The position numbers were made by a program, and so were the translations under genes. A DNA stretch of 64,000 bases from contig JABDDQ010000001.1 of assembly GCA_013287545.1 (NCBI GenBank), positions 59,898 through 123,897 on the forward strand, written 5' to 3'. Numbering within the stretch: position 1 is the first letter of the stretch; every line of letters starts with the position of its first letter. Under the pieces are notes generated by a model. It searched no databases. It saw only the letters and a program-made list of their open reading frames with translations, and had not been told where the DNA came from. Origin of the DNA: Bacteroidota bacterium. GTDB lineage: Bacteria; Bacteroidota; Bacteroidia; B-17B0; Aurantibacillaceae. Shown here one piece after another: positions 26,158 through 30,544 of the stretch.

Positions 26158-27009
26158 CTACAATAAACCCATTAAAGCCAGATAACAAAAAACAAAAGGG
26201 GTAGCAAAAAAGAGGCTATCAAACCTATCTAACACCCCACCATGCCCTGGCATAATGCTGCCACTATCTTTAACACCTGCCATTCGTTTAAGCATAGATT
26301 CTACTAAATCGCCTAAAGTGCCAAAAACAGCCACTATAATAGAAATAACTACCCAATGTTTTTGGGCTAATTGCGGAAACATACCAGCTACAACAAACGA
26401 TAAACCAATACAAAAGGCAATGCCACCAAGGGTACCTTCCCAAGTTTTATTTGGTGATATTTTTTCGTAGAGTTTATGCTTGCCAAAAAAACTTCCTACA
26501 AAATAAGCTCCTGTATCATTCAGCCAAATAAAGAAAATCATGCCTACTATTCTTTCAGGTTGAAATTCATTTCTAACTTCTGCATAATTAAAATGTAAAA
26601 CCATCGAAATAAGCATGCAACAAGGTACAGTAACATAAAGTAATGATAAAAGCAGGTAGGCCACATTTTGTAAAGAGGATGTTTCTCTAAATAATTCTAC
26701 AATAAATAAACAGAAGCATACAACAACAAATAAATGGGGTAAAAATCTAAGATAGTTTGGCATCTGTATAAAAGGATACCATATTGCAATTACAATGGCT
26801 AATAAATTTAAGGAGTAGCCAACTATTTTGGTAGGATGTGCATGTAAGTTTTCGCTTAACTTAAAAAACTCATATAAACCAATAAAGCTGACTACAGTAA
26901 AAAAAAGAATAAATGATAAATAATTGTACCAAACACAACCCAACAACAACGCCACAAATACTAATGCAGTTGTGGCGCGTGTATAAAAAGTTTTAACGTT
27001 AAATGCCAT
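26158..27009 (-). CDS. cdsA: Phosphatidate cytidylyltransferase
   Basis: NDTGAYFVGSFFGKHKLYEKISPNKTWEGTLGG; GDLVESMLKRMAGVKDSGSIMPGHGGVLDRFDSL. Confidence 0.97.
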   Translation of the reverse strand: MAFNVKTFYTRATTALVFVALLLGCVWYNYLSFILFFTVVSFIGLYEFFKLSENLHAHPTKIVGYSLNLLAIVIAIWYPFIQMPNYLRFLPHLFVVVCFCLFIVELFRETSSLQNVAYLLLSLLYVTVPCCMLISMVLHFNYAEVRNEFQPERIVGMIFFIWLNDTGAYFVGSFFGKHKLYEKISPNKTWEGTLGGIAFCIGLSFVVAGMFPQLAQKHWVVISIIVAVFGTLGDLVESMLKRMAGVKDSGSIMPGHGGVLDRFDSLFFATPFVFCYLALMGLL

Positions 27010-29117
27010 TAAGCTTCGGTTGGTGCGCTATTTATGGCAGCGGCCACTTCTTCTTTATCAAAAGGGCGTTTTCCAAAAATAAGTTCTAAATCATCGCGGA
27101 AAATAACTTCTTTCTCCAATAATTTTTCGGCCAATAAAGTTAGTTTAGCCTTATGTTCCGTTAAAAGCTCTTTGGTTTTAACGTAGGCTTTATCAATTAA
27201 TTTTTTTATCTCTTCATCAATTGTTTGTGCCGTATGCTCGCTATAAGGCTTACCAAACTGGTATTCTTGTTGTCCGCTGCTATCGTAATAACTTACATTT
27301 CCTATTTTATCGTTTAAGCCGTAATACACAACCGATGCAAACGCTTGTTTGGTAATTTTTTCTAAATCGCTTAAAGCGCCTGTACTAACTCTGCCAAACA
27401 TAATTTCTTCCGCAGCACGTCCACCAAGGGCAGCGCACATTTCATCGAAAATCTGATCCATTGTATTTAGTTGTCTTTCTTCGGGTAAGTACCAAGCCGC
27501 ACCTAACGAACGACCACGAGGTACAATGGTTACTTTTACCAAAGGAGATGCGTGTTCAAGCATCCAGCTAACCGTAGCATGCCCTGCTTCGTGAAACGCA
27601 ATAACGCGTTTTTCTTGTGGAGTAATAATTTTGTTTTTCTTTTCTAAACCTGCAATAATACGGTCTACAGCATCTAAAAAATCTTGTTTCTCAACAAATT
27701 GTTTATCGTTACGTGCAGCAATTAAAGCGGCTTCGTTACAAATGTTAGCGATATCGGCACCACTAAAACCGGGTGTTTGTTTTGCTAAAAAATCAATGTC
27801 TAAATCTTTATCTAATTTAATTGGTTTCAAATGCACTTGAAAAATCTCTCTGCGTTCATTTAAATCAGGTAAATCAACATGTATTTGCCTGTCGAAGCGA
27901 CCGGCACGCATCAATGCTTTATCTAAAATATCGGCGCGGTTAGTTGCTGCTAAAATAATTACACCGCTGTTAGAACCAAAACCATCCATTTCGGTTAAAA
28001 GCTGGTTAAGTGTATTTTCACGTTCATCGTTTCCACCAAACGAAGCATTTTTCCCGCGTGCTCTACCAATAGCATCAATTTCATCTATAAAAATAATGCA
28101 AGGTGATTTTTCTTTTGCCTGACGGAATAAATCTCTAACACGCGATGCGCCAACACCTACAAACATTTCCACAAAATCAGACCCCGATAAAGAGAAGAAC
28201 GGAACTTTAGCTTCGCCTGCAACAGCTTTTGCTAATAAGGTTTTACCGGTACCCGGAGGGCCTACCAATAAAGCCCCTTTAGGAATTTTAGCACCTAAGT
28301 CGGTATATTTTTTTGGTGTTTTTAAAAAGTCAACAATCTCTTTAATTTCAACTTTTGCACCTTCTAATCCGGCAACATCACTAAATGTAATGTTTACGTT
28401 AATGTCTTTATCAAATAAAACGGCTTTACTTTTTCCTATGTTAAAAATTTGTCCGCCACCTGCACCACCATTCATACGACGCATAATAAACATCCATACA
28501 ACAATCATTAATACAATTGGCCATATCCACCCAAAATATTCCGACCAATTAGTACGTGTTTCGTTAGTTGGAGTAATCATTTTGTCTTTTGGTATGCCGG
28601 CTTCTTGTTGAACTTTTTCTATCCTATCCCAAAATTTTTCTACAGGAGGAATGCTGGTAACTACAAATTGAGGACCTTGTATTGCTTTTGGATTTGCAAT
28701 AATAGGTTTATTGCCTACAGTATATCTAAAAAGAGATAAACTATCCGGGTTTACACGTATTTCGGCAGTTTTTTCATTTACTATGGTAATGGAAACTACA
28801 TCACCTTTTGCTAGCATATTTTGCTCGAAAGAAGTTTCGTTTACCTGTTTCATTCCTCCACCAAAACCAACTCCCTCGTTTCCTAACAACGTAAAAGCAA
28901 TAAGTATAATAATGATTATGGCATATATCCAATAAAAATTGAAACCGCCACCGCCGCCTTTGTTGGATGGCATGCCGCCTTTGCGTAAACGCTCGCGCAT
29001 TTTTTCAAATTGGTCTTTTAACTCTTCATTGTTTTTTTGAGAAGAAGGTTGAGGAGGCTTATTGGCAGACGAGCTGTTTTCGGCAGGTTTTGGTTCTTCT
29101 TGAATATTTTCGCTCAT
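27009..29117 (-). CDS. ftsH: ATP-dependent zinc metalloprotease FtsH
   Basis: [36 protein letters not shown] motif, [10 protein letters not shown]. Confidence 0.98.
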
Positions 29118-29136: not shown

Positions 29137-29709
29137 TTATTTAAGTCTTGTTATTTCTGCATCAGCCCACAAATCTTCTAAACGATAAAAATCGCGTGTT
29201 TGTTGCTGAAATACGTGTACCATAATATCTACATAATCTAATAAAATCCATTCAGAATTTTCCCAACCTTCGGTATGAAAAGGGCGCTCATTTAATTGTT
29301 TCTTTACAGTCTCTTCTACCGAAGATGCAATTGAATCAACATGGGTAGACGATTCTGCATCGGCAATTACAAAAAAATCAAACGATCTGTTTTTAATATT
29401 GCTAAGGTCTAAAACAGTTATGTTTTTTGCTTTGCGTTCCTCTAAACCATCTATAATACTATCTAATAAAGGGTTTTTAATTTTTAATTTCGGCTCTTCT
29501 TTTTTAGCAATTGCCTTTTTAACAGCTACTTTTTTTACAACTGCTTTTTTAGCTGCCGCCTTTTTGGCAACAACTTTCTTAACTGCCACTTTTTTAGCTG
29601 CAGTTTTTTTAGTAGTTACTTTTTTTACCGAAACTTTTTTAGCAACCTTTTTTACTGTTGCTTTTTTAACCGCCTTTTTAGTCGCAGTTTTTTTTGTAGT
29701 TTTTGCCAT
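29137..29709 (-). CDS. rsfS: Ribosomal silencing factor RsfS with lysine/alanine-rich N-terminal extension
   Basis: C-terminal LLDSIIDGLEERKAKNITVLDLSNI...FDFFVIADAESSTHVDSIASSVEE...GWENSEWILLDYVDIMVHVFQQQTRDFYRLEDLWADA; N-terminal MAKTTKKTATKKAVKKATVKKV... Confidence 0.93.
   Translation of the reverse strand: MAKTTKKTATKKAVKKATVKKVAKKVSVKKVTTKKTAAKKVAVKKVVAKKAAAKKAVVKKVAVKKAIAKKEEPKLKIKNPLLDSIIDGLEERKAKNITVLDLSNIKNRSFDFFVIADAESSTHVDSIASSVEETVKKQLNERPFHTEGWENSEWILLDYVDIMVHVFQQQTRDFYRLEDLWADAEITRLK
29500..29709 (-). repeat. In-frame degenerate ~15-nt (KKxxx pentapeptide) repeat encoding a histone-H1-like tail
   Basis: KK dyads at about every 5 residues across the first ~70 codons of rsfS. 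Confidence 0.85.
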
Positions 29710-29755
29710 ATAATTTTTTACCGAAACTTTATTTTTCACGCCAAAGCGTATCATG

Positions 29756-29763
29756 CAAAGATA
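29756..29763 (-). promoter_or_regulatory. -7 box TATCTTTG for rsfS
   Basis: + strand CAAAGATA, 4 nt from the oppositely oriented birA -7 box. Confidence 0.5.
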
Positions 29764-29767
29764 ACAT

Positions 29768-29775
29768 TATTTTTG
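29768..29775 (+). promoter_or_regulatory. -7 box TATTTTTG for birA, 7 nt before ATG
   Basis: TATTTTTGccgttaaATG. Confidence 0.5.
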
Positions 29776-29782
29776 CCGTTAA

Positions 29783-30544
29783 ATGGATACGCTTTTTATT
29801 GGTCAACATATACTTGAGTTAGATGAAACAGAGTCTACCAATACTTATGCCACTAATTTAATTAAGGAAATACAGGTTGCCGAGGGAGCAGTAGTTTTTA
29901 CACATAACCAAACAAAGGGCAGAGGGCAAGTTGGCAACACCTGGCAGGCTGAAAGCGGTAAAAACCTTACATTTTCGCTTATTTTACACCCCAATTTTTT
30001 GGCAGTAGATAAGCAGTTTTATTTAAGTAAAATAACATCGTTAGCGGTTTATGGCATGCTGACAGATTTTTTGAATACAAGCCTTTATGACATAAAAGTT
30101 AAATGGCCTAATGACATTCTGGTAAACGATAAAAAAATAGCCGGCATTTTAATTGAGAACGTTTTGCGAGGTAATTTCTTACAAAGTTCAGTAATTGGTG
30201 CGGGTATAAATATTAACCAGCAAAACTTCAGTAATGTAGATAAACAAGCTACTTCCCTTAGTATATTACTTCAACAGAGCTTTGAATTAAAAGAGATGCT
30301 ACATAGTTTTTGTAGGCATTTCGAAGCACTTTATCTATCGCTTAAGCAAGGTAATTTTGATAAAGTAAGCCAAGCTTATTTTAAACAGCTTTATAAGTTT
30401 AATGAATGGGCTGTTTATCAAGCTAAAGAGCAAAAATTTACGGCAAAAATCCTTAAAGTTGAAGAAACCGGCTTGCTTGTACTTTCAACTGAACAAAACG
30501 AGACGCTAAAGTTTAACTTTAAAGAGGTCCAATTAATTGGGTAG
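29783..30544 (+). CDS. birA: Biotin--[acetyl-CoA-carboxylase] ligase
   Basis: ESTNTYA, QTKGRGQVGNTWQAESGKNLTFSLIL, KWPNDILVNDKKIAGILIEN. Confidence 0.95.
   Translation: MDTLFIGQHILELDETESTNTYATNLIKEIQVAEGAVVFTHNQTKGRGQVGNTWQAESGKNLTFSLILHPNFLAVDKQFYLSKITSLAVYGMLTDFLNTSLYDIKVKWPNDILVNDKKIAGILIENVLRGNFLQSSVIGAGININQQNFSNVDKQATSLSILLQQSFELKEMLHSFCRHFEALYLSLKQGNFDKVSQAYFKQLYKFNEWAVYQAKEQKFTAKILKVEETGLLVLSTEQNETLKFNFKEVQLIG

Follow-up and report, generated by a model that had tools for sequence, protein, structure and literature searches.

RsfS (YbeB/Iojap) is, to our knowledge, nearly universal in bacteria. Apart from tailed forms such as the one described below, it appears in this analysis and in the papers cited here solely as a compact domain bound to uL14 of the 50S subunit. 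In Staphylococcus aureus, residues E70, W77, D81 and Y98 contact uL14 (PMC7125091, PMC9503621), and Q49, R53 and K56 are reported to touch 23S rRNA. Lysine-rich low-complexity regions have been generally linked to nucleic-acid binding in prokaryotes (PMC6821194); the lysine repeats of actinobacterial topoisomerase I stabilise nucleic-acid binding and keep the enzyme on DNA (PMC7398561), and the lysine-rich tail of mycobacterial HupB aids DNA binding (PMC5676037). Here, we report that the window, i.e., the whole 64,000-nucleotide stretch of Bacteroidota DNA that was analysed, encodes an ordinary single-copy RsfS with an added N-terminal arm of lysine repeats, and that this arm is a feature of the lineage, which belongs to the uncultured Bacteroidia.

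An ordinary RsfS core behind a lysine-repeat tail

Residues 84-181 of the window RsfS match the Pfam RsfS family (PF02410, E 9.4e-32, 109.6 bits versus a cut-off of 21.6), and TIGR00090 gives 106.5 bits versus a cut-off of 56.9. The core is modelled by AlphaFold with pLDDT values of 80-95, and Foldseek ranks 50S-bound S. aureus RsfS first among its matches (6sj6 chain 9, TMt 0.85). The four S. aureus residues that contact uL14 align with E147, W154, D158 and Y175, which are invariant among 34 family sequences; a larger collection of tailed RsfS has the E, W and D in 37/37 and the Y in 36/37. Domain score, fold and these four residues bear out the normal RsfS core of the original prediction, and since both the fold and the contact residues are kept, docking on uL14 is very likely preserved in the window organism.

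The three S. aureus positions with reported 23S rRNA contacts (Q49, R53 and K56) align with D125, S129 and E132, respectively, and the core of the window RsfS is acidic, with a charge of -10. Glutamate at the K56 position is found in 34/37 tailed versus 26/92 untailed RsfS, a difference that is confounded by ancestry. We considered charge compensation between core and tail and set it aside, because the correlation between the two charges is weak (Spearman -0.19, p 0.03, without ancestry correction). In the alignment, E. coli RsfS has neither the S. aureus rRNA-contact residues nor a tail, so that RsfS function does not depend on having one.

The tail, together with a short linker, takes up 80 residues rather than the ~70 first estimated, with a composition of K32 A16 V14 T8. 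Its KK dyads stand at residues 6, 11, 15, 20, 24, 29, 34 and onwards to 69, in steps of 5,4,5,4,5,5,5,5,5,5,5,5,5, and the triplets between them are rich in Ala, Val and Thr, just as had been described. The DNA beneath is a diverged 15-nt repeat, in which TRF detects 15-, 30- and 45-nt periodicities with 62-74% matches; the first 75 codons include 25 AAA and 5 AAG. AlphaFold predicts the tail to be disordered (pLDDT 42-53), so that it has the makeup of the topoisomerase I and HupB tails, i.e., disordered Lys-rich units that recur at one end of a conserved domain. Residues 4-71 score 37 bits against the histone H1-like HC2 family (PF07382), under the curated Pfam cut-off of 40, and the NCBIfam histone H1-like models give 22.7 (cut-off 135) and 27.6 (cut-off 80). 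The HC2 likeness of the tail is a compositional resemblance and not membership.

Table 1. Coordinates of the rsfS locus in the window and of other tailed proteins from the same assembly
Feature	Position	Strand	Remarks
rsfS	29137..29709	-	190 aa, ATG start at 29709, stop codon 29137-29139; open frame
Polycationic N-terminal tail and short linker, residues 1-80	29470..29709	-	32 Lys, net charge +30, predicted disordered
(KKxxx)n repeat, residues 6-70	29500..29694	-	14 KK dyads, 15-nt DNA period
RsfS domain, residues 81-190	29140..29469	-	uL14-contact residues E147, W154, D158, Y175 present
GTG, codon 41	29587..29589	-	sole in-frame alternative start-type codon within the tail
Bacteroidetes-type -7 promoter box TATCTTTG	29756..29763	-	54 nt upstream of the tail ATG
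FtsH gene, downstream of rsfS	27009..29117	-	same-strand conserved neighbour, 42/42 family loci
Biotin--protein ligase (BirA-like) gene, divergent neighbour	29783..30544	+	38/42 family loci; name from sequence and conserved context
AhpC/TSA peroxiredoxin, N-terminal (KKxxx)n tail	L214:1527-2114, genome C8:44026-44613	+
DNA topoisomerase I, C-terminal lysine-repeat tail	L215:1476-3998, genome C17	-
SWIB/MDM2-domain protein, N-terminal MAKK... tail	L310:9565-9948	+
VOC/3-dmu-type protein, N-terminal MAKK... tail	L308:17588-18202	+

The likely start of rsfS is the ATG at 29709, because the -7 box directly adjoins the upstream ATG at 29754, which is the start given in a mechanical list of open reading frames; the upstream start was also rejected on account of stops just upstream of MAK in several relatives. 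The + strand open frame 29399-29713 runs antisense to the tail and was set aside. Please note that window positions 29756-29775 hold two divergent -7-like boxes with 4 bp between them: TATCTTTG on the - strand faces rsfS, and TATTTTTG on the + strand faces the BirA-like gene, the leader of which would be very short.

Spread, transcription and selection of the tail

RsfS was extracted from 57 genomes of the window's family, one of which is cut by a contig end. All 56 with a complete N-terminus carry an extension (44-200 aa, median 80, net +15 to +53), with no tail loss among these 56 genomes from 10 genera, and 14 further family members have open frames of at least 184 aa. A frameshift or other sequencing artefact, which had been named as a possible explanation, is ruled out by a tail common to 56 genomes. 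The comparison of RsfS homologues suggested with the original prediction also uncovered long Lys-rich tails in several other Bacteroidia families (nine cases), while in the sampled remainder of the Bacteroidia the extension is mostly ~10-14 aa, often with a few Lys (MAKKKK...), and many untailed relatives have short K-rich stubs such as MAKKKKKK. On an RsfS-core tree of Bacteroidia, which is built from few columns, 7 changes are required for the tail, and the starred branches are compatible with one origin. One record in our set, titled as a Rhizobium sp. MAG, has a Flavobacterium-like RsfS, probably from binning contamination.

Between the KK repeats and the core, ~34/56 family members have a conserved linker, EANxIANxEKKK...KRPKKxSTxxQTxSL, as counted by a strict motif that misses variants; this linker is absent from the window's genus. 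The model of one linker-bearing RsfS has a predicted helix there, at modest confidence (pLDDT ~56-64).

Of the 56 family genomes, 55 have a -7 box of the form TAnnTTTG in the 100 nt preceding the tail ATG, compared with a mean of 2.8 and a maximum of 7 after shuffling, and none has one within the tail, from which we conclude that the tail is transcribed. It had been claimed that no Met lies between tail and core; this holds, with the addition of one in-frame GTG at codon 41. A start downstream of the tail was rejected, as there is no Met, the lone GTG is non-conserved, and the tail of no genome has a -7 box. The MAK start of the tail is conserved.

Where computable in same-genus pairs, dN/dS is 0.08-0.35 for the tail and 0.007-0.05 for the core; these are pairwise counts on repetitive alignments and hence approximate, and the direction is equal in every pair giving a ratio. 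Between the window and one sister species, the tail has a dN/dS of 0.08 and keeps 32/32 Lys, seven of them via silent AAA/AAG swaps, and differs by one 5-residue (15-nt) insertion, KKAPA. Across the same-genus pairs, the Lys kept are 32/32, 30/33 and 24/24, again with silent AAA/AAG changes. What is conserved in the tail is Lys, and the A, V, T and S positions turn over. Judged by these substitution patterns, the tail evolves as coding sequence under purifying selection. We are nearly certain that the tail is real, that it is transcribed and that selection maintains it. The upstream promoter in 55/56 genomes, its absence inside the tail, the low dN/dS and the conserved MAK start are comparative evidence in favour of the earlier view that the tail is probably translated, and the expected variability in repeat number is seen as between-species length differences in 15-nt units.

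Such differences by repeat units, the repetitive DNA and the MAKKKKKK-type stubs of many untailed relatives as a starting point could also be explained if a short basic N-terminus had expanded by slippage of the 15-nt repeat into a merely harmless tail. We disfavour this explanation as improbable, because Lys is kept by silent codon changes while A, V and T turn over, dN/dS is well below 1, no loss is seen among the 56 genomes from 10 genera, and a costly arm of 44-200 residues would be expected to decay.

Possible roles of the arm

The tail is probably a nucleic-acid-binding arm of some kind. As to its main job, we tentatively favour the anchoring of RsfS to the rRNA of the 50S or pre-50S, rRNA being the putative ligand. 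As in other bacteria, uL14 of the 50S or pre-50S would serve as the docking site for the folded domain, and the arm, which is flexible, would bind the neighbouring 23S rRNA backbone by non-specific electrostatics; this binding may raise the affinity of RsfS and slow its release, by analogy with the lysine repeats that hold topoisomerase I on DNA. With an acidic core and D125, S129 and E132 at the S. aureus rRNA-contact positions, a separate basic arm could supply the rRNA contact.

Similar tails were sought in a sample of 874 kb (~40%) of the window's assembly with 791 ORFs; this sample is not blind, because the peroxiredoxin stretch was fetched after a pattern search had found the peroxiredoxin. 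Five of the 791 ORFs have such a terminal arm: RsfS, topoisomerase I, a SWIB-domain protein, an AhpC/TSA peroxiredoxin and a VOC/3-dmu protein. Since so few sampled ORFs have such a segment and the RsfS tail is family-wide, the tail is not a chance occurrence, and four further tailed proteins in ~40% of the genome mark lysine tails as a habit of the lineage. The lysine-repeat tail of topoisomerase I is also found in four relatives, and in many family members the peroxiredoxin has longer KK tails, up to 100 residues or more. In two other families of Bacteroidia, we recognized by eye DksA/TraR-like proteins that likewise begin with a long, KK-rich tail.

Two of the four other tailed proteins, topoisomerase I and the SWIB protein, are DNA-linked, which favours DNA as the common ligand and which, like the tailless E. 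coli RsfS, we count against rRNA. The main rival explanation is accordingly that a histone H1/HC2-like DNA-binding tail holds RsfS, perhaps with its bound 50S or pre-50S, at the nucleoid, and similar tails may do likewise for the topoisomerase, SWIB protein and peroxiredoxin of the window genome. The 37-bit HC2 similarity, the DNA complexes stabilised by the topoisomerase I repeats and the role of the HupB tail agree with it, and long KK tails on the peroxiredoxin of many family members would fit DNA protection. However, the HC2 likeness is compositional and under the cut-off, no DNA role is known for RsfS, neither peroxiredoxin nor VOC proteins are known to bind DNA, and a polycation without specificity should encounter RNA no less often in a cell rich in rRNA; we consider nucleoid attachment rather unlikely. 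A broader proposal, which we hold to be quite unlikely, is that histone H1-like lysine arms are, in this Bacteroidia lineage, a shared localisation code on a handful of unrelated proteins (RsfS, topoisomerase I, SWIB, peroxiredoxin and VOC) that directs them to the nucleoid or to a nucleic-acid-rich compartment. If true, such a code would, in the case of RsfS, tie the silencing of ribosomes or the assembly of the 50S physically to the chromosome.

A disordered, lysine-rich tail of net +30 on a factor active in starvation might instead promote condensation by charge, with RNA or polyphosphate as partner, when cells starve, and concentrate RsfS with stored 50S; condensation driven by lysine and RNA has been reported (PMC6606616). 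This proposal overlaps with RNA binding as such, and we consider it decidedly unlikely as the main role of the arm. It is highly improbable that the Lys run acts as a nascent chain, i.e., that it slows or stalls its own translation and so matches RsfS production to the status of ribosomes or lysine. The 25 AAA and 5 AAG codons would suit such control, but the KK dyads are interrupted every 5 residues with no long poly-Lys, and the C-terminal tail of topoisomerase I cannot slow the synthesis of the enzyme preceding it.

A highly charged arm selected family-wide means that the silencing factor itself is open to evolutionary re-engineering, and the natural length series, from ~10 to 200 residues, offers a way to find out if it is electrostatics that determine how strongly ribosomes are silenced.

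Comparison with described systems

The mitochondrial RsfS homologue MALSU1 also has a long N-terminal region before its RsfS domain (domain at ~95-195 of 234 aa), part of which is a mitochondrial targeting sequence; unlike the window tail, this region is not a lysine repeat. With RsfS/YbeB/Iojap (PF02410, TIGR00090), the window protein shares the complete domain, the fold, the uL14-contact residues, the single copy and the FtsH/BirA-like neighbourhood. The matched solved bacterial RsfS, in contrast, are short (most 105-139 aa, the longest 152 aa), align from near their own N-terminus and have no lysine-repeat arm in the aligned part. We found no report of a lysine-repeat-tailed RsfS in the literature searched, the coverage of which leaves out most subscription journals; what is new is the combination, as this type of lysine tail and the host protein RsfS are each already known.

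The KK dyads and the Ala/Lys/Val/Thr-rich composition recall HC1/HC2 (PF07382, NF038052, NF038053), but these are free-standing DNA-binding proteins, and the match of the RsfS tail is sub-cut-off and compositional. The 'eukaryotic-like' tail of mycobacterial HupB (PMC5676037) is likewise a lysine-rich terminal extension on a conserved bacterial protein; HupB, however, is an HU-type nucleoid protein with DNA as ligand and a C-terminal tail. Actinobacterial topoisomerase I (PMC7398561) similarly has degenerate histone H1-like lysine-rich repeats added to a conserved enzyme domain, with the difference that its repeats are C-terminal and on a DNA enzyme, whereas the window tail is N-terminal and on a 50S-binding factor. 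That topoisomerase I, SWIB, peroxiredoxin and VOC proteins have this arm as well suggests that lysine tails are a general strategy beyond the GC-rich bacteria, on which the review of that topoisomerase lays emphasis (PMC7398561).
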